Source of the DNA: a virus
Length of the DNA stretch: 32,375 bases
Direction: 5' to 3' (one strand)
Virus record (IMG/VR): IMGVR_UViG_3300037502_000551
Location: 1 to 32,375 of that record
A program made the translations under genes and the position numbers. The notes below the pieces were generated by a model. It did not search any database, was not told the DNA's origin, and worked only from the letters and a program-made list of their open reading frames with translations. Shown in pieces: positions 3,868 to 26,559 of this stretch (the stretch's first letter is position 1; every line of letters begins with the position of its first letter).

Positions 3868-3955
3868 CTTTGTTTAGTTTAGTTAGAAAAACACGGAGTT
3901 TCTCAATATTCTCTTGTTTTGGTTTATATGTTCCTACTTTTGTTCGTGTTCTCAT
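3857..3955 (-). CDS. Very small basic protein (32 aa)
   Basis: A 32-residue lysine/arginine-rich frame (MRTRTKVGTYKPKQEN...) starts at an ATG overlapping the stop of the HNH gene (ATGA) and ends overlapping the next gene by 11 nt. The chained overlaps are the main evidence that it is translated. No function can be given. Confidence 0.5.
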   Translation of the reverse strand: MRTRTKVGTYKPKQENIEKLRVFLTKLNKDGK

Positions 3956-4365
3956 ATTTTTTTTCTATGTAATTCGTTACCTAAATGGATATAAGAATGT
4001 TCTCTATTTTCCAAATTTGTAACCCATTCCAAGTTTTCTAATCTATTGTCGCATTTGATTCCGTTTATGTGATTAACCTGTTCTTTATTCTCAGGATTCG
4101 CTATAAACGCATTTGCAACTAATCGATGTACTTGATGATTTCTTTTGATACCATCTTTATACAATCCTAATCTACAATAACCCTTATCCGTAATATGAAA
4201 TTTAACGAACTTAGGTTTGTACGTCATATGTTGTACAACACCATCAATAATCGGGTGAGGTCTTGAAAACTCTCTTGTTTTACTTTTTACTCTTCCTAAG
4301 TTGCTGACCTCGTACAACTCTTCATAACCTTTTACAGGTTTCCATTGTTCTTGCTGCATACGCAT
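3952..4365 (-). CDS. HNH homing endonuclease with NUMOD4 motif
   Basis: The 137-residue protein has an N-terminal NUMOD4 motif (W-KPVKGYEELYEVSNLGRVKS, residues 8-29) and a following HNH nuclease core with HRLVANAF, VNHINGIKCDNRLENLEW and the closing Asn/His. Free-standing enzymes of this type nick or cut DNA at a target near their own insertion point and spread by recombination. It sits in the late unit between the connector gene and small structural genes, interrupting the structural module. A second NUMOD4-HNH gene is at 19392-19877. An internal ATG at residue 3 could also be the start. Confidence 0.88.
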   Translation of the reverse strand: MRMQQEQWKPVKGYEELYEVSNLGRVKSKTREFSRPHPIIDGVVQHMTYKPKFVKFHITDKGYCRLGLYKDGIKRNHQVHRLVANAFIANPENKEQVNHINGIKCDNRLENLEWVTNLENREHSYIHLGNELHRKKI

Positions 4366-18092: not shown

Positions 18093-18278
18093 TTATTTAA
18101 CTTTTGATTCGTCTTTTTGTAACACATAGGCATAAGCCTGAGCGAGCATCTGAGTGTGTCTTCTCACATTGAAGATATCATTGAACACAATCTGCACTCT
18201 TTTACCAGTCTTGTCTTTGATATACTGCTCTACTACCCGTATCATTTTAGGTAGCTCATCGGATGTTGTATTGTCCAT
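18093..18278 (-). CDS. Small conserved-type protein (61 aa) after terminase
   Basis: The 61-residue product is helical, with QYIKDKTGKRVQIVFNDIFNVRRHTQMLAQAY, a pattern I associate with small genes directly following terminase in Bacteroidota phages. It overlaps the terminase gene by 23 nt and ends 2 nt before the chaperone gene. The function is unknown; a packaging accessory is possible. Confidence 0.65.
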   Translation of the reverse strand: MDNTTSDELPKMIRVVEQYIKDKTGKRVQIVFNDIFNVRRHTQMLAQAYAYVLQKDESKVK

Positions 18279-19416
18279 AGTTTGATTTTAATCCGAGTGC
18301 TTCCATCTCGTGGTATCTAAGCGCGTCGATAGCGTGATTGAAGTGGTCGATAGGTTTGTTCATCCTGACACCTTGCTTGTCAGTATCCCAACAATAACTC
18401 CTAAGTTCTTTAATTAGGTTTGTACTTGATTTGGTAACTAAGTATTCTTGTCTTTGCATTACGTCAATACCATAGTTAATAGAGTCTTTTCCTTTGGTTA
18501 CTCCTTTAATCGTCTTTCCGTAGCGTCTTATCTCCTCGATTGATTTAGGTTCGGAACTATCTGCGTAAATAATCACACCTGACGGAAGTATCTTAGCGAT
18601 GTCTGAGTTAACCATACCAGTTCGGTAAACAAGTTCGTTTACTATTCGCTTTCCATTCCAATTATAAACCTCAATAGCAGCGGTAGGGTCATTCGTGTAT
18701 CCGAAGTCAAGTCCTATGCCTACCAATCGTGCGTCATTAGGAACTTTATCAATCTCCTTCCAATTGTCAAATACTACACCCTCTAAAGAACCAACTTCTC
18801 CAAGTCCGTAAACCCTGTACCAATTTTCCCAATATGTACTTGTAGCAGCTTTTATTTTGGCTTTCTCAATAAAATCTATTGCACTTTGAGGGGCTGCTTC
18901 ATTGTCCTTGTAATTAAGAATAATAAAGTCTACGTTATCTTGACCTTGTAGTTCAGTATGAAACCAAAACTCGTTAGATGGATTCCAGTCTAAAATGATT
19001 GACTGCTTTGTACGCATAGCCAACTCCGTAAATGAGTTAAAGTCTATGTTATTACATTCGTTTATATATAGCCTATCACGTCTTGCCCCTCTTAATTTTG
19101 AGGCATTATCCGCAGAGAAGAACTCTATAAATGAATTATTAGCAAACGTATATTTGAAATCTGTAGCATTCCAATGTTCATCTACCCACCTATTAGTTGA
19201 CATCATAATCTTCTTAAAGTCTCGAATCGCACCTCTTTTTAGGTGAGGTATACTTTCCGATACGATTGAAGTTTCCGTTCCTGCGTGTTTTATCGCATAA
19301 TCAATTTCTATTGGTAGAATCCCATAAGTTTTTCCTGCACTTGAGCCTCCTTGTATACCTTTTATAAACTTTGTTAGCTTCAGTATCTTATTTATTGCCG
19401 TTGTCCGTATAAACAT
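18256..19416 (-). CDS. terL: Terminase large subunit (TerL)
   Basis: The 386-residue protein shows the packaging ATPase with Walker A GGSSAGKT (residues 23-30) and Walker B LYINE (116-120), followed by the RNase H-like nuclease with GLDFGYTND (D237), YADSSEP (D286) and HAIDALRY (D364) supplying metal-binding acids. It translocates DNA into the procapsid and cuts the concatemer, docking on the portal. The first 20 residues overlap the 3' end of the HNH gene by 25 nt. The N-terminus is short but has the normal distance to Walker A, so the gene looks complete. Confidence 0.95.
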   Translation of the reverse strand: MFIRTTAINKILKLTKFIKGIQGGSSAGKTYGILPIEIDYAIKHAGTETSIVSESIPHLKRGAIRDFKKIMMSTNRWVDEHWNATDFKYTFANNSFIEFFSADNASKLRGARRDRLYINECNNIDFNSFTELAMRTKQSIILDWNPSNEFWFHTELQGQDNVDFIILNYKDNEAAPQSAIDFIEKAKIKAATSTYWENWYRVYGLGEVGSLEGVVFDNWKEIDKVPNDARLVGIGLDFGYTNDPTAAIEVYNWNGKRIVNELVYRTGMVNSDIAKILPSGVIIYADSSEPKSIEEIRRYGKTIKGVTKGKDSINYGIDVMQRQEYLVTKSSTNLIKELRSYCWDTDKQGVRMNKPIDHFNHAIDALRYHEMEALGLKSNYGQYNIR

Positions 19417-19877
19417 ATAGCTTTTTCTTTAGCTTCCTCAAATGAATTAAATCTCTTTCCAAACTTATACACCCTGTACTGATTCCTTTTTGCATCATAA
19501 TATACATACGGATGTTTAGACTTGTATTTGGCATCCGTGTTTCTAAATGTTAAATTTTCAGAATTTGTGGCATATCTTAAATTCTCTAAACAATTATTCG
19601 TCTTATCTCCATCTATGTGGTCAACATATAAATCACTATAACCAACAAAAGTAGACATAACTAATCTATGAACATAGCAATGCTTAACATTACCACAGGA
19701 ATCAATTAAAGATATTCTTTTGTATCCTTTTGAATGAGTACCTTCTTTGAATTTTTCTTGAATGGTTCTTTTGCGTCCATCACTTCTAATTATTACTCGT
19801 TGCAATGATTTAACTCTTCCAAGATTAGACACTTCATAAATGCCCTCATATCCGCTTATTGTTTTAAATATTTCCAT
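19392..19877 (-). CDS. HNH homing endonuclease (NUMOD4-HNH, AP2-like C-terminus)
   Basis: The 161-residue protein has a NUMOD4 motif (ISGYEGIYEVSNLGRVKS, residues 6-23), an HNH core (HRLVMSTF...VDHIDGDKTNNCLENLRY) and a C-terminal YVYYDAKRNQYRVYKFGKRF segment like the AP2-type DNA-binding modules of homing enzymes. I take ATG 19875-19877 as start; a GTG nine codons upstream lies inside the promoter. It is inserted between TerS and TerL, a favoured homing site in phages, with its stop inside the TerL start region. It probably cuts the terminase region of phages lacking it. Confidence 0.88.
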   Translation of the reverse strand: MEIFKTISGYEGIYEVSNLGRVKSLQRVIIRSDGRKRTIQEKFKEGTHSKGYKRISLIDSCGNVKHCYVHRLVMSTFVGYSDLYVDHIDGDKTNNCLENLRYATNSENLTFRNTDAKYKSKHPYVYYDAKRNQYRVYKFGKRFNSFEEAKEKAICLYGQRQ

Positions 19878-19881
19878 ACTA

Positions 19882-19913
19882 CAAATATACAATAAACGCG
19901 CCACTTATCCAAA
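19882..19913 (-). promoter_or_regulatory. Bacteroidota-type promoter upstream of the HNH gene
   Basis: On the minus strand TTTG (19910-19913) is followed after exactly 20 nt by TATATTTGTA, matching the Bacteroidota -33/-7 consensus. The ATG is only 4 nt past the -7 element, so the transcript would be leaderless or nearly so, or would serve the terminase gene downstream. Confidence 0.7.
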
Positions 19914-21638: not shown

Positions 21639-21872
21639 CTAAAAAGGTAAGTCTGAATCCATACTCTCTCCAATTGGCTTGCGCTCTTCCTGTGGAAAAT
21701 ACGGCTCGCTGAATGATGCGCTAAAGAAACTTCCGTTCTTACCTTGCTTTACCCACAAAGCAACTTCCATCTCTTTGCCGTTTACGTTTACCTTGCCTCG
21801 ATAGTCAGGGTGTTTCTCGCTTGTCTTTTTGTCGTTCTTAAAGATTGCTCCTGTGTTTGTTTTGTTTTCCAT
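21639..21872 (-). CDS. Putative single-strand DNA-binding-type protein with SSB-like tip
   Basis: The 77-residue protein has NTGAIFKNDKKTSEKHPDYRGKVNVNGKEMEVALWVK, like DUF736-type small beta-barrel proteins, and ends in the acidic tip MDSDLPF. Bacterial SSB proteins end in a near-identical DDDIPF-type tip that recruits replication and repair enzymes. It sits at the end of the early unit that carries replication and recombination genes. Function as an SSB substitute or SSB-tip mimic is inferred. Confidence 0.65.
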   Translation of the reverse strand: MENKTNTGAIFKNDKKTSEKHPDYRGKVNVNGKEMEVALWVKQGKNGSFFSASFSEPYFPQEERKPIGESMDSDLPF

Positions 21873-21970: not shown

Positions 21971-22044
21971 AGTGATGCTATTAAGAATCCGATTGCTATA
22001 CCAGCAAGAGTGTGAATGATTCGGTAGTAGGTTTCGTGTTTCAT
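21967..22044 (-). CDS. Tiny membrane protein (25 aa)
   Basis: A 25-residue frame starts at the ATGA junction after the 64-residue gene and encodes one hydrophobic stretch (IIHTLAGIAIGFLIASL). Its stop overlaps the next start (ATGA). Only the tight gene chain supports it. Confidence 0.45.
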   Translation of the reverse strand: MKHETYYRIIHTLAGIAIGFLIASL

Positions 22045-22235
22045 TGTTCGTCTATTATTTGCACATCAACTTTGACTTTTTTACCCTCGCTTAATATCTG
22101 CGCCAAGTCATCAACCAAATCTTGAATCAATCGCCAGTTGTTTAGAGATATTTTTTCAAGCGTTTGTGTTTCGAAATACTGCTCATAGTAGGTAGTTCCC
22201 TCACCTATTCTTATAAATTCACTTTGTATTTTCAT
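22041..22235 (-). CDS. Array gene: hypothetical protein (64 aa)
   Basis: The product is a small acidic alpha/beta protein (MKIQSEFIRIGEGTTYYEQYFETQ...VDVQIIDEQ). Its start is embedded in a perfect copy of the 19-bp junction repeat (22232-22250). Its end, IIDEQ, is a degenerate form of the KQQEQ tail. No family was recognised. Confidence 0.6.
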   Translation of the reverse strand: MKIQSEFIRIGEGTTYYEQYFETQTLEKISLNNWRLIQDLVDDLAQILSEGKKVKVDVQIIDEQ

Positions 22236-22465
22236 TGTTCTTGTTGTTTAAGTTGTTCTTTTAACCAATTTTCAAATTCAAATAGTTGCTCTTCTTTATA
22301 ATTTTCATCATAAATACAATATTCAAAATCATAAAAATCAAGATGAAGACCATTTTCATCATCCATATTTATGCAATAATACTTCCAATCAAAGTTGTTT
22401 ACAAATTCAACTTCAATATTTTGACATTTGTATTTTTTTGCAATCTTAATTAAGTCCTTTTTCAT
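22232..22465 (-). CDS. Array gene: acidic hypothetical protein ending LKQQEQ (77 aa)
   Basis: The 77-residue protein is acidic and aromatic-rich (FDWKYYCINMDDENGLHLDFYDFEYCIYDE) and ends NWLKEQLKQQEQ. Its stop TGA overlaps the next ATG. The start lies in a junction repeat with one mismatch (22462-22480). The acidic aromatic surface recalls DNA-mimic proteins, but this is only an impression. Confidence 0.65.
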   Translation of the reverse strand: MKKDLIKIAKKYKCQNIEVEFVNNFDWKYYCINMDDENGLHLDFYDFEYCIYDENYKEEQLFEFENWLKEQLKQQEQ

Positions 22466-22701
22466 TGTTCTTGTTTTTTAAGTTCAGGTCTCATTGGTTC
22501 TTTGTTCTCATTACCATCATCCCATCCTTGAGAATAACCATAGTTAGTATCTTCTTGGCGTTGCTCCTTCTCCATTTCTTTGGCTTGTTCAAATATAATC
22601 GCTTGTTTTTGATACCAATGAAGATGAGTTATTAGACCAAGTCTTAATTCTTCTAAAAGTTCTATATTTTGTTCACGATAAAATTCTACTGCTGTTTTCA
22701 T
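22462..22701 (-). CDS. Array gene: MKTAVE family member 1 (79 aa)
   Basis: The product begins MKTAVEFYREQ and contains QAKEMEKEQRQED, as in two other array genes (23405-23623 and 24331-24597). The middle helix carries most of the similarity and the end is ELKKQEQ. Proteins with this start are common in Bacteroidota phages and unassigned. The start context (AACAATAACAATG) is a degenerate junction repeat. Confidence 0.7.
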   Translation of the reverse strand: MKTAVEFYREQNIELLEELRLGLITHLHWYQKQAIIFEQAKEMEKEQRQEDTNYGYSQGWDDGNENKEPMRPELKKQEQ

Positions 22702-22720
22702 TGTTATTGTTTTTTAAAAT

Positions 22721-22801
22721 TTATTTATCAGATTTATACAATAAGTAAAAAAATACTATTGTTGAAATTGTTATACAAATAACTTCTACTATCTCTTTCA
22801 T
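22721..22801 (-). CDS. Array gene: tiny membrane protein (26 aa)
   Basis: A 26-residue frame has one hydrophobic segment (VEVICITISTIVFFYLLY) and a basic end. Its ATG is part of a perfect junction repeat (22798-22816) and overlaps the upstream stop. It ends before the next junction repeat and has no KQQEQ tail. Confidence 0.5.
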   Translation of the reverse strand: MKEIVEVICITISTIVFFYLLYKSDK

Positions 22802-23175
22802 TGTTCTTGTTGTTTAGTTTCTACAATCTCAATCAGTTTGTCAAGACAAGCAAGTTCTGCTTCTTCGTAGGTTTTATAAATATCCGACAGATGTGAATAT
22901 GCAAATGACCATTGAATATAAAACTCATATTCATTGCTATTAAGACTTGTTACATCAATAAGAAATTCCTTTTTTCTAAACCATCTAAATGCTTGTTGGA
23001 ATAGTGGTGCCAATGTAAAAAACTCACTTCTGTCAACACCATTATCAATAATGTACTTTTCAGTGTGAGCAATTAACAAATCACCATCATTGTTAAATCT
23101 AGCAAAACAAGGTTCATCAAATCCAAGTGCTTTGAGTTTAACCGCCAACTCATAAGGTACAAATTCTTTTATCAT
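22798..23175 (-). CDS. Array gene: FVPYELA family member 1 (125 aa)
   Basis: The 125-residue protein begins MIKEFVPYELAVKLKALGFDEPC and has LAPLFQQAFRWFRKK and YKTYEEAELACLDKLIEIVETKQQEQ. It is a clear paralogue of the gene at 23620-23997, similar at both ends but diverged in the middle. The family is widespread in phages of Bacteroidota and of unknown function. Both start and end lie in perfect 19-bp repeats. Confidence 0.75.
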   Translation of the reverse strand: MIKEFVPYELAVKLKALGFDEPCFARFNNDGDLLIAHTEKYIIDNGVDRSEFFTLAPLFQQAFRWFRKKEFLIDVTSLNSNEYEFYIQWSFAYSHLSDIYKTYEEAELACLDKLIEIVETKQQEQ

Positions 23176-23408
23176 TGTTCTTGTTGTTTAAGTTGTTGCA
23201 AATGTTCTTTAACTAAAAACTCATAATGAAAAGGCAAATCCATTTTAAAGTGTTCAAATACTTCTAAAACTTCTTCCTCACTATACATTTTTTTAGATTG
23301 CCATTCAGCACCTGCTATAAAATCTTGTTTATGTGCTCTTTGAAAAACAGGTGCGTCACTTTTTTTTGAATATTTCTCAGCAACTTGTTCTAGTGTTTCT
23401 TCTTTCAT
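23172..23408 (-). CDS. Array gene: hypothetical protein (78 aa)
   Basis: The product starts MKEETLEQVAEKYSKKSDAP and has FIAGAEWQSKKMYSEEEVLEVFEHF, a pattern found in many small Bacteroidota phage proteins. It is all helical and ends HLQQLKQQEQ. Junction repeats flank both ends. The function is unknown. Confidence 0.7.
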   Translation of the reverse strand: MKEETLEQVAEKYSKKSDAPVFQRAHKQDFIAGAEWQSKKMYSEEEVLEVFEHFKMDLPFHYEFLVKEHLQQLKQQEQ

Positions 23409-23623
23409 TGTTCTTGTTGTTTAAAGGTTTCGCTGTAGTATTCTTTAGGATTATATAAATCTCCATTACCTCCTCCAATGATATAGCCAATGGTGTGAGC
23501 TTCAATAATTTGCTCCTTCTCCATTTCTTTGGCTTTATGAATAGCCTCATATAAAAGTTTATTGTCAAAAGGTGAGTAATGTTCTAACATCTCACTTTCC
23601 AACCATTCTACTGCTGTTTTCAT
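23405..23623 (-). CDS. Array gene: MKTAVE family member 2 (72 aa)
   Basis: The 72-residue protein begins MKTAVEWLESEM, has HKAKEMEKEQIIEAHTIGY and ends YYSETFKQQEQ. It shares the start, the KEMEKEQ helix and the YY-x-ETF end with the other family members. It is flanked by perfect junction repeats. The function is unknown. Confidence 0.7.
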   Translation of the reverse strand: MKTAVEWLESEMLEHYSPFDNKLLYEAIHKAKEMEKEQIIEAHTIGYIIGGGNGDLYNPKEYYSETFKQQEQ

Positions 23624-23997
23624 TGTTCTTGTTGTTTAAGTTCTACAATCTCAATTATTTTCTCAAGACAAGCAAATTCTGCTTCTTCGTATATGTTATA
23701 AGTACCACAATCTATAATACCATCTTCACATTCTATCATAGACTCATAACCCAAACAAATACCATATTGCCAATCTTTTTTGATGTGAGATTCTAAACCA
23801 TACTTCTCTCTAAACCATCTAAATGCTTGTTGGAATAGTGGTGCAACACACTGTAATGAGTCACCATGAAAATCAGTTATTAAACATTCTTGAATTATTA
23901 ACTCTTGATTTCTTTCATAAAAACCTAAACAAGGTTCATCAAATCCAAGTTGCTTGAGTTTTAAAGCCAACTCATAAGGCACAAATTCTTTATTCAT
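23620..23997 (-). CDS. Array gene: FVPYELA family member 2 (125 aa)
   Basis: It is a paralogue of 22798-23175, with MNKEFVPYELALKLKQLGFDEPC at the start, APLFQQAFRWFREKYGL in the middle and FACLEKIIEIVELKQQEQ at the end. The central part, with several Cys, differs. Its start repeat (23994-24012) is non-coding because the upstream gene stops earlier, so that repeat cannot be kept only for the peptide tail. Confidence 0.75.
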   Translation of the reverse strand: MNKEFVPYELALKLKQLGFDEPCLGFYERNQELIIQECLITDFHGDSLQCVAPLFQQAFRWFREKYGLESHIKKDWQYGICLGYESMIECEDGIIDCGTYNIYEEAEFACLEKIIEIVELKQQEQ

Positions 23998-24016
23998 TGT
24001 TCTTGTTGTTTAATTT

Positions 24017-24334
24017 CTACTCTGCTATATAAATCCTTGTTGGTCTAGTGGTTTCTACAACATAACCATCAGAGCCATTGTACCAATCAGTTACTTTTTC
24101 AGCATTTGGCTTTTCCTCACACTTAACTGCATAAAAGATTTGGCATCCTGCAATGACAATCTCTTTACCATTTCCACCAACAATAGCATACCAATTGGCA
24201 CTTTGTCTGTTTGTTTTAATTCCCATGATAGATTCATCACCAAGGATTTTCACATCACCCCAAGCTGCTGAATATGTAACACCATCAGGAGCAACAAAGA
24301 ATTTATCTGTTGTTATCAAGTATTTACCTGTCAT
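24017..24334 (-). CDS. Array gene: hypothetical beta-rich protein (105 aa), no KQQEQ tail
   Basis: The product starts MTGKYLITTDKFFVAPDGVTY and includes WGDVKILGDESIMGIKTNRQSANWYAIVG and VIAGCQIFYAVKCEEKP. It resembles a recurrent small protein family of Bacteroidota phages without known function. It ends in YIAE, 4 nt before the next junction repeat begins, unlike its neighbours. Confidence 0.7.
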   Translation of the reverse strand: MTGKYLITTDKFFVAPDGVTYSAAWGDVKILGDESIMGIKTNRQSANWYAIVGGNGKEIVIAGCQIFYAVKCEEKPNAEKVTDWYNGSDGYVVETTRPTRIYIAE

Positions 24335-24597
24335 TGTTCTTGTTGTTTAAAGGTTTCATTATAATAATCTTCTGCAGCTCTTCTAAAAGACTTATCCTTG
24401 CCATGGTTCAAATCATAAACTTGACAAGCAAACTCAATTTGTTGCTCTTGTTCCATTTCTTTTAGTTCTAAAGCAACTCTTTTTGCAAATGCTAAACCAA
24501 TCATTCTGCCCTGTACTTCTGCTATATATTGGTGCGTTTTTAAAAAGTCAACTTCATTGTCTATTTCTTCAATTATTTTTTCTACTGCTGTTTTCAT
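24331..24597 (-). CDS. Array gene: MKTAVE family member 3 (88 aa)
   Basis: The 88-residue protein begins MKTAVEKIIEEI, contains LELKEMEQEQQIEFACQVY and ends DYYNETFKQQEQ. It is the longest of the three paralogues. Perfect junction repeats flank it (24331-24349 and 24594-24612). The function is unknown. Confidence 0.7.
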   Translation of the reverse strand: MKTAVEKIIEEIDNEVDFLKTHQYIAEVQGRMIGLAFAKRVALELKEMEQEQQIEFACQVYDLNHGKDKSFRRAAEDYYNETFKQQEQ

Positions 24598-24839
24598 TGT
24601 TCTTGTTGTTTAGTTAGTTCTTGTTCTACTTCTTTCCAATATGTTAACCCCATTGGATGAGGTGTAAAGTAATCACTTGATTTTGCAAAATCCGTATCAT
24701 CAAAATCCGTATCATCCTTTCTGCTTTCAATGACTTCATAAACTACAATCAATGCGCATTCTATGGCAATCTGTTTAGTTTCAGCTCCTTTAAATACAAA
24801 TGTTGTAAATAAATTATCTGCTTTTTCTAGTGGTGTCAT
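24594..24839 (-). CDS. Array gene: hypothetical protein (81 aa)
   Basis: The product begins MTPLEKADNLFTTFVFKGAETK, is helical at the start with an acidic DDTDFDDTDF repeat in the middle and ends ELTKQQEQ. The segment KQIAIECALIVVYEVIE is typical of small Bacteroidota phage proteins. Its start context (AACAAGAAGAAATATG) is a diverged junction repeat. Confidence 0.65.
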   Translation of the reverse strand: MTPLEKADNLFTTFVFKGAETKQIAIECALIVVYEVIESRKDDTDFDDTDFAKSSDYFTPHPMGLTYWKEVEQELTKQQEQ

Positions 24840-24861
24840 ATTTCTTCTTGTTATTTATAGG

Positions 24862-24993
24862 TTATATAAAATATTTAATTATTTCTATTATTATAAAAAT
24901 TCTAATTACGTCAATGAAACTAAATCTTTTTATTTCTGATAGTTCCATCCATAAATGCTCAATTATTCTAATTGTTCTTTTCATTATTCTCAT
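24862..24993 (-). CDS. Array gene: small membrane-associated protein (43 aa)
   Basis: The frame starts at the ATGA of a perfect junction repeat (24990-25008). It encodes a basic first half (MRIMKRTIRIIEHLW) and a hydrophobic isoleucine-rich second half (VIRIFIIIEIIKYFI). The rest of the gap to 24839 is AT-rich with no other frame. Support is mainly the shared junction. Confidence 0.5.
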   Translation of the reverse strand: MRIMKRTIRIIEHLWMELSEIKRFSFIDVIRIFIIIEIIKYFI

Positions 24994-25361
24994 TGTTCTT
25001 GTTGTTTAAAGGTTTTTACTTCGTCTTTCAAACGCTCCAAGTACAAGCAGAAGTCCATAGCCTCTTCCTGAGCGTGATTAAGCCATTCTAATGCACTTAA
25101 ATCAGTTCGTGTTAACATAGTACCGTACTTTTCTATTCCTCGTTGTGAGCGGTCATAAAACTTGCTAATTACTTTTATGACAATTGGGTCTTCTACTTTC
25201 TGGTTTATCGGTTCTTCTTCTATTTGTTCTATTTCATCAATAGCTGCTCCTATCGTTTTGATAGCATTTCTAAACCTATATTGTAAATCTGTACTTAAGT
25301 TTGGAAACATTAAATGCAGAGCTAAATTTGCTTCTTCTATTTCTTCTTTAGTTCGTTTCAT
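24990..25361 (-). CDS. Putative MazG-like/nucleotide pyrophosphohydrolase-type protein, first array gene
   Basis: The 123-residue protein contains SKFYDRSQRGIEKYGTMLTRTD...ALEWLNHAQEEAMDFCLYLERLKDE, resembling the all-alpha NTP pyrophosphohydrolase (MazG-like) proteins of phages, with the E-E-x-x-D acidic helix that binds metal. It would act on (d)NTPs. The end KTFKQQEQ carries the array tail, while its start does not use the junction repeat. It overlaps the exonuclease gene by 4 nt. Confidence 0.65.
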   Translation of the reverse strand: MKRTKEEIEEANLALHLMFPNLSTDLQYRFRNAIKTIGAAIDEIEQIEEEPINQKVEDPIVIKVISKFYDRSQRGIEKYGTMLTRTDLSALEWLNHAQEEAMDFCLYLERLKDEVKTFKQQEQ

Positions 25362-26038
25362 AAGAATTTAATTAAGGCGTTATAATACTCTCGGCAATAC
25401 TCTATCTTCTCTTTGATTTGGTCGATTACTTGTTCGTCTTTTTGTACATAGAATACTTTTACTCTGCGGTTCTTTGGTATTTGGCTAAATTCGTGTTTGC
25501 GTAGAATCTCCTCACGCAAGTCGTAGTCCTCGTCAATCTTGTGCAGTTTCCAATGCGCACGTCTGATTTCATCCTCTACCATTTCGATAGGTGTATCAAC
25601 AAGGCAGTAGCAAAGCATTGCCTGTTCCTTGCCAGTCAACCATAGGTACCCTTGCAACTGAAAAAAATAGTCTTTATTAGGGATTTCGGTATCAAAAAAC
25701 GGAAAGGTTGTAGCGTCCCAAGAGCTTTTAACGTCAAGCAATACATCCTCCGTGTTTACGTCAGGTGTTCCCTTGATATAATCGTTCTCAAAATACTGCT
25801 CGTTCTTATAGATAAAGTTTACGTCTAACACATCGTTTACAAGTGAGATAGACAAATCCTCAACTGCGTTGCCTTTGTCCGTGTAACGGCTTGAAAACTC
25901 CTTCCTGATGCCGTATTTCTCTTGTAACACGAGTTCGTGAATGTAAGATTTAGCAGTTTGACTTAGCAGCTCCGTTTTAGAGCGTGGACTTGCCATGATT
26001 TTCCCTATGGCAGAACATCGAATCTTGAGAGCTTTCAT
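25358..26038 (-). CDS. YqaJ/lambda-exo-type recombination exonuclease
   Basis: The 226-residue protein carries PD-(D/E)XK nuclease residues: E60 in GNAVEDL, D93 in IKGTPDV and D102-x-K104 in LLDVKSSW, followed by a DYFFQLQGYLWLTG helix typical of YqaJ-type viral recombinases. It would resect DNA ends 5' to 3' and load the annealing protein encoded immediately upstream (overlap ATGA). The pair forms a Red-like recombination system. Confidence 0.85.
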   Translation of the reverse strand: MKALKIRCSAIGKIMASPRSKTELLSQTAKSYIHELVLQEKYGIRKEFSSRYTDKGNAVEDLSISLVNDVLDVNFIYKNEQYFENDYIKGTPDVNTEDVLLDVKSSWDATTFPFFDTEIPNKDYFFQLQGYLWLTGKEQAMLCYCLVDTPIEMVEDEIRRAHWKLHKIDEDYDLREEILRKHEFSQIPKNRRVKVFYVQKDEQVIDQIKEKIEYCREYYNALIKFL

Positions 26039-26559
26039 AGTGCGTTGAGCATATCAATTTGACCTTCAGTTAATGCAAATGATGATTCGAGTTTTTCTCG
26101 TGTGAACTCACCTTTAGCAATGGCTTGAACTGCTGCGCTGAATCGCTTTTGGTCAATTGCAGGCAGTTTTTTCTCCGTCTTTACTTGCTCACCGCTTGCG
26201 TCCGTGTCTTTGTCCGTTACTAACCCAAGTGCAGAACTTAAAGCATAACGGCGGTAGTACGTTACACCTGAACCAAAACCTTGATAGTCATTCATACCCT
26301 TGAGCTGAACGTAAGGAATCATACAAACCGACTCCATAAACTCACCGCTTTCGTGGAAGATAACCGTCTTGAGGCAGTTTTGTCCTTCTTGGTTTGTAAG
26401 TTGTTGGGTAAATCCAAGTCCGTGTTTCTTTAGGATAGGATTGATTACCTCAAAAATCTTGGGTAAATCTGCGTAAGAATACCCGTAGCCTTGCGTGGCT
26501 TTGTGAATTACTGGCACTTCCTGCTGAAATGCTGCCAAACTTTTAAATAAATTTTTCAT
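26035..26559 (-). CDS. erf: ERF-family single-strand annealing protein
   Basis: The 174-residue protein has the ERF hallmark GYGYSYADLPKIFEVINPIL (residues 24-43) and YYRRYALSSALGLVTDKDTDA (residues 101-121). ERF proteins form rings on ssDNA and promote annealing and genome circularisation. The C-terminal 40 residues form a small helical region. Its ATG is preceded by ACACGCT, the early start motif, and by a -7-like element at 26577-26584. It overlaps the exonuclease gene. Confidence 0.92.
   Translation of the reverse strand: MKNLFKSLAAFQQEVPVIHKATQGYGYSYADLPKIFEVINPILKKHGLGFTQQLTNQEGQNCLKTVIFHESGEFMESVCMIPYVQLKGMNDYQGFGSGVTYYRRYALSSALGLVTDKDTDASGEQVKTEKKLPAIDQKRFSAAVQAIAKGEFTREKLESSFALTEGQIDMLNAL

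Follow-up and report, generated by a model that had tools for sequence, protein, structure and literature searches.

Here we have analysed an array of small accessory genes in a 32,375-base IMG/VR virus record (IMGVR_UViG_3300037502_000551), the whole of which we refer to as the window, and have shown that the short repeat joining these genes is a leader that abuts the start codon of the following gene. This leader (leader I) and an alternative to it (leader II, TAAATCAGAATAAG-ATG) are restricted to phages, precede many protein families and form arrays that mostly carry a single type. Breakpoints of homology are in excess at the leaders, whole cassettes are gained or lost between them, and the same gene can be found behind either leader. 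We consider it likely that the leader is a phage-borne translation-start signal that doubles as short homology for the recombination of gene cassettes, perhaps by means of the exonuclease and the ERF annealing protein encoded next to the array.

The repeat in the window array

Essentially all genes of the window lie on the minus strand, in the order structural genes, terminase, accessory array, exonuclease, ERF annealing protein and replication genes. The 19-mer TAAACAACAAGAACAATGA, which represents leader I, is present on the minus strand in nine exact and two near copies between 22232 and 25008, in the array only, while 0.07 copies would be expected in the window by chance (dinucleotide shuffle). 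An initial annotation of this DNA had claimed nine exact and four degenerate copies at consecutive gene junctions, each supplying the start of the next gene and usually the KQQEQ tail and stop of the upstream gene. All nine exact copies were recovered at consecutive junctions, and the KQQEQ ending, with an ATGA overlap, is seen in eight of the 12 upstream genes; one more ends in KKQEQ. The count of degenerate copies held only in part: two are close (one mismatch at 22462-22480 and two at 22698-22716), whereas the likenesses at 24839 (four mismatches in the 14-nt core) and 22044 (five mismatches) are much weaker, and the last barely counts. The copies and the open reading frames (ORFs) they adjoin are as follows:

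24990..25008, minus strand: leader I, exact; starts a 43-amino-acid ORF (24862-24993) and gives the stop of gene 24990-25361
24594..24612, minus strand: leader I, exact; start of the MKTAVEKII gene 24331-24597 and stop of 24594-24839
24331..24349, minus strand: leader I, exact; start of 24017-24334 (phrog_22562) and stop of 24331-24597
23994..24012, minus strand: leader I, exact, with a non-coding upstream side; start of the EFVPYEL gene 23620-23997
23620..23638, minus strand: leader I, exact; start of the MKTAVEWLE gene 23405-23623
23405..23423, minus strand: leader I, exact; start of the MKEETLEQ gene 23172-23408
23172..23190, minus strand: leader I, exact; start of the second EFVPYEL gene 22798-23175 (phrog_25117)
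22798..22816, minus strand: leader I, exact; start of a 26-amino-acid hydrophobic ORF (22721-22801)
22698..22716, minus strand: leader I, two mismatches; start of the MKTAVEFYR gene 22462-22701
22462..22480, minus strand: leader I, one mismatch; start of the MKKDLIK gene 22232-22465
22232..22250, minus strand: leader I, exact; start of the MKIQSEF gene 22041-22235
24594..24839, minus strand: cassette gene MTPLEKADN, 81 amino acids; its own leader is strongly diverged (four mismatches)

Where the upstream gene terminates early, at 24017, the repeat is kept as non-coding DNA, as had been noted. The proteins of the array are unrelated or are diverged paralogues: the two EFVPYEL proteins are 46% identical in amino acid sequence, and the MKTAVE proteins 44-47% over 43 amino acids. 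Since most of the leaders are nonetheless identical, the repeat is not the remnant of a recent duplication, in agreement with the earlier view that simple gene duplication does not account for it.

Two leaders at the starts of phage genes

As the first related loci had been picked by the motif itself, relatives were retrieved again by means of the ERF protein or the terminase, which yielded 97 dereplicated, motif-independent loci with a total of 972,600 bases. In these loci, the 14-nt core of leader I, AAACAACAAGAACA, is directly followed by ATG in all 56 of its copies, and no copy is inverted or located away from a start codon. The distances to the core of the sequences preceding 1882 starts are bimodal, with 47 exact copies and 17 with one to three mismatches, next to a background hump near eight. 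The initial annotation had proposed a search for the repeat elsewhere. At least 120 other viral loci carry a 17-mer of leader I at the junctions of their arrays, on one strand only within each contig.

Leader II emerged from a motif-free analysis of the motif-independent loci, in which it precedes some of the same gene families, and it is likewise present in at least 120 viral loci. The idea of one common boundary is refined by this alternative leader of sister arrays. Among 294 dereplicated contigs, leader I stands before at least 83 protein families (115 contigs) and leader II before at least 61 (70 contigs), whereas any other 14-mer leader precedes at most eight. The leader-bearing contigs include records of 173 kb (L001) and 223 kb (L325), whose gene content is unlike that of the window. 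At the end of the 173-kb contig (L001:11332-12426), a block of leader I cassettes is tandemly repeated at a distance of 651 bp, which is either a recent duplication of the array or an assembly artefact.

The leaders are confined to phages. In 395 Bacteroidota genomes, each leader has a single match in two genomes, which is the level expected by chance, and on this ground we rejected the possibility that the leader is a ribosome binding site derived from the host. The exact 21-mer has four matches in 257 Gb of genomes, which look like chance; the one that was inspected, in Kordia, lies between two host chromosomal genes. BLAST searches with the leaders against 50,697 records of cultured phages gave only partial matches at chance level, and no such leaders were found in the literature on Bacteroidota phages, of which subscription journals were mostly outside the search.

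Besides starting one gene, the leaders end another. Stops within leader I terminate 140 of 233 upstream ORFs, 107 of them by a KQQEQ-TGA that overlaps the next ATG and 33 by a TAA at -15, and an upstream ORF reads past the leader in only seven cases; the stops of leader II terminate 114 of 158. Genes ending in KQQEQ precede leader I in 104 of 108 cases and those ending in KSE precede leader II in 57 of 73. This holds within one family, as 27 MKTAVE genes end in KQQEQ, all before leader I, and 31 end in KSE before leader II. The C-terminal tail thus depends on which leader comes next rather than on the family of the protein, and KQQEQ is a by-product of leader I. The earlier description of a repeat "encoding KQQEQ" is correct in that the tail is present at most window junctions, but the boundary is a start-codon leader and its reading as KQQEQ is incidental. 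The hexamer ACCTTT is found upstream of both leaders (75 of 244 copies of leader I and 84 of 172 of leader II), and is retained even behind a stop codon, so that the unit that is copied may slightly exceed 19 bp.

Exchange at the leaders and competing explanations

Across the motif-independent loci, the array varies, but the genes that flank it are fixed: the exonuclease and an adjacent gene border it on one side, the MENKTN gene on the other. The clearest case of turnover is provided by three loci: L141 has one cassette where L111 and L143 have two, and the extra gene, which differs between the latter loci, lies exactly between two leaders. Of the ends of homology (at least 92% identity), 33% fall no more than 5 nt from a leader, as compared with 5% for random positions. 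Because breakpoints favour ordinary gene starts too, these were taken as the control. Over whole contigs, breakpoints are enriched 24.9-fold at leaders versus 4.0-fold at other gene starts, and within 1 kb of the arrays 9.8-fold versus 2.0-fold. In addition, a gene that is 97% identical between L060 and L381 has leader I in the former and leader II in the latter. The proposal of the initial annotation that the array consists of exchangeable cassettes with a common boundary is thus supported both by the gain and loss of whole genes exactly between repeats and by the concentration of breakpoints at them, and neither of the two outcomes that it had named as refuting was observed. Misassembly at a repeat of 19-24 bp is unlikely when long k-mers are used.

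In our proposal, each gene of the accessory array has leader I, in the form [ACCTTT]AAACAACAAGAACA-ATG, immediately at its start. The leader brings with it the start context of that gene (A at -3, -6, -12 and -13, unstructured), together with two stops in different frames for the preceding gene, namely the TAA at -15 and the TGA that overlaps the ATG. Since the leader brings both the start context and the upstream stops, a gene and its leader together form a self-contained cassette, able to follow any other, and since the leader is identical between unrelated genes it would also serve as short homology and hence as a recombination substrate. Cassettes would then be gained, lost and swapped at this homology between co-infecting phages. 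One likely agent is the pair of exonuclease and ERF annealing protein whose genes lie beside the array, and leader II would play the same role in a second pool of arrays. Given the open structure predicted at its starts, the leader likely drives strong translation as well.

Several points weigh against this proposal. Identical leaders drag the ends of alignments to their own edge, which raises the breakpoint counts to some extent. The turnover of the arrays could instead use homology in the conserved flanking genes. The leaders are evidently not essential, as only 49 of the 97 motif-independent loci hold one within two mismatches, and the arrays of many relatives are without it. The role of ERF and the exonuclease at the leader is inferred from their adjacency and from general knowledge. 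Finally, the gene calls were naive (ATG-only, greedy) and many of the contigs are metagenomic fragments.

An alternative that would dispense with recombination is that the leader is only a translation signal, that is, an optimal start context under selection, with breakpoints reflecting the usual mosaicism at gene borders. The exact lock to the ATG agrees with this explanation, as does the open structure: the predicted unpaired fraction from -20 to +12 is 0.70 at leader starts versus 0.58 at other genes (p 1.6e-11). The A residues of leader I at -3, -6, -12 and -13 agree with the start context of Flavobacterium johnsoniae (PMC6847099), and ordinary starts are also breakpoint-enriched, by two- to fourfold. 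However, leader junctions are about fivefold above neighbouring ordinary starts. Moreover, C-2, G-5 and C-8 of leader I are conserved at 92-95% in the motif-independent set, which goes beyond the needs of ribosome recognition and is not explained by an A-rich start context; selection alone would leave this conservation and the absence of the leaders from host genes without explanation, and likewise the two discrete exact leaders and the uniform arrays. We therefore regard a purely translational role as unlikely.

The uniformity of the arrays deserves separate consideration. None of the 23 motif-independent contigs with at least two leaders mixes the types, where random dealing would give 14.5, and among all contigs with at least two leaders 19 of 131 do so, where 89 would be expected. 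In some mixed arrays (L038, L077, L045 and L102), the leaders are in consecutive blocks, for instance three of type II and then seven of type I. Relatedness explains part of this uniformity. On the ERF tree, however, the leader type changes at least 10 times, six of which are forced by well-supported branches, so that arrays switch type repeatedly yet remain uniform. This behaviour would fit leader-matched exchange, replacement of the whole array via the fixed flanks, or a matching trans-acting factor. In the last case, the two leaders would form a phage-specific start code, each array being written in one dialect; we find this quite unlikely. If it were true, genes would need the leader of the recipient for their expression, and phages of the same host would form exchange pools defined by the leader. 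A related reading, in which a specific factor for each leader (a phage RNA-binding protein, a small RNA or a modified ribosome) forces one type per array, appears improbable to us. It is favoured by uniformity despite repeated switching among related phages and by the conservation beyond the A-rich context, but none of 53 gene families tested in the available flanks of the arrays is associated with leader type (smallest p 0.067), no ribosomal S21 gene was found in seven records, and 19 contigs carry both types, some of them in blocks.

A role as a DNA site, be it an operator, a promoter or the anchor of a DNA-binding protein, would suit a short, highly conserved repeat in a single orientation. 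This is highly improbable, though, as every core copy abuts a start codon, with none elsewhere or inverted, the repeat is not palindromic except for TTTAAA, and it overlaps coding sequence in half of the cases. We give virtually no credence to a functional C-terminal KQQEQ tag, which the tails of eight of the 12 window genes might suggest, and rejected it because the tail follows the next leader, with the MKTAVE family carrying KSE instead before leader II and about half of the leader I copies not being read as KQQEQ. A site-specific system such as an integron is just as hard to credit in spite of the cassette-like architecture and common boundary, and was rejected because seven leader-bearing records contain no tyrosine integrase above the cut-off and no serine recombinase, and no attC-like inverted repeat was found at the two window junctions examined.

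Flanking genes and relation to known systems

The genes that border the window array, and the terminase that served as bait, are the following:

24990..25361, minus strand: fixed upstream flank, a conserved gene (phrog_23240 and others), whose 3' end is fused here to the first leader
25358..26038, minus strand: phage recombination exonuclease (phrog_5715, E 1e-60), upstream of the array
26035..26559, minus strand: ERF-superfamily single-strand annealing protein (PF04404, E 3e-28)
21639..21872, minus strand: fixed downstream flank, the MENKTNTGAIFKN gene, with a weak DUF736 match
18256..19416, minus strand: terminase large subunit (Terminase_3C domain), the motif-independent bait

The nearest named relatives of the window terminase are those of Flavobacterium psychrophilum phages (53% identity), which suggests that the host of the window phage likely belongs to the Bacteroidota. 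For the cassette proteins, a Pfam search gave nothing above the cut-off and PHROGs gave only families of unknown function, and the window MKTAVE protein has no match among cultured phages. An analogy to other phage regions of small genes suggests that the cassette proteins may act on the host or on its defences. The leaders can also precede genes for a ThyX-like thymidylate synthase and a thioredoxin-like protein, recognised by eye. Two further window proteins (3952-4365 and 19392-19904) look by eye like HNH/NUMOD4 proteins (..YEVSNLGRVKS..) and are probably homing endonucleases; a similar gene lies before the exonuclease in relatives (L174).

The gene preceding the array ends in ..GTAAAACAATTTAAACAAGGATAA in relatives (L111:6608-6660) and in ..GTAAAAACCTTTAAACAACAAGAACAATGA in the window (24990-25020). 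This 3' end is thus similar to the leader, which may have originated from it or recombined with it. Many relatives, though not the window, have a non-coding element of about 60-130 nt with a terminator-like hairpin just before the first cassette (L082:7940-8100; also L009, L015, L018, L094, L099, L111, L135, L136, L139, L141, L143, L150, L160, L197 and L199). One of its helices shows compensatory changes at three of five pairs, with 143 of 143 pair cells standard. Rfam gave no match near the arrays, and this element at the array head may represent a structured RNA not described before.

Our results show that a large group of uncultured aquatic phages, represented by hundreds of environmental contigs, has strings of small genes joined by one start signal. 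The gain, loss and swapping of whole genes at this signal is a concrete case of phage genome shuffling. The leaders also mark genes in unannotated phages, as an ORF behind a leader is very likely real and belongs to the accessory pool.

The cassettes resemble those of integrons in being interchangeable genes with a common border, but here the border is start and stop punctuation, with no integrase and no attC. The mobile regulatory cassettes of T4-type phages (Arbiol et al. 2010), which reportedly consist of an early promoter plus stem-loop elements, likewise place a repeated regulatory element beside small accessory genes and tie it to gene shuffling; the leader differs from them in having no stem-loop or promoter and in acting at the start codon. 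With the Kozak-like start context of Bacteroidota (A at -3, -6 and -12/-13, unstructured, no Shine-Dalgarno sequence; PMC6847099), the leaders share the A positions and the low structure. That context is a weak statistical preference, however, whereas the leaders are exact 14-nt sequences that are absent from host genes.

The closest known kind is that of the Start-Associated Sequences (SAS) of Cluster K mycobacteriophages (PMC3203893) and Cluster EF Microbacterium phages (PMC7302621). The SAS is an exact repeat of 13 bp with a Shine-Dalgarno core (AGGAG), present in 10-19 copies per genome; half of the copies have 17-bp inverted repeats upstream (ESAS), and its function is unknown, its conservation being too strong for a ribosome binding site alone (PMC3203893, PMC7302621). 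In both systems, a short exact repeat in one orientation directly precedes the starts of unrelated small genes, and the SAS, like the leaders, can contain the upstream stop codon. The Shine-Dalgarno core is lacking in both AAACAACAAGAACA and TAAATCAGAATAAG, for which reason we do not file the leaders as SAS. Furthermore, the SAS is confined to one or a few phage clusters, whereas the leaders span phages of about 30 to over 170 kb and come in two alternatives, with breakpoints and whole-cassette indels mapping to them. As for inverted repeats of the ESAS kind, the two window junctions examined show none.

Short conserved boundary sequences have been proposed to let homologous recombination shuffle phage modules (PMC3029335), but have rarely been found at real borders. 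The same idea probably applies here, now with statistical support and at the borders of single genes, as homology breaks more often at the leaders and whole modules are gained, lost or replaced between two repeats. The boundary-sequence and start-associated-repeat ideas thus converge in one element, whose two versions permit controlled tests.

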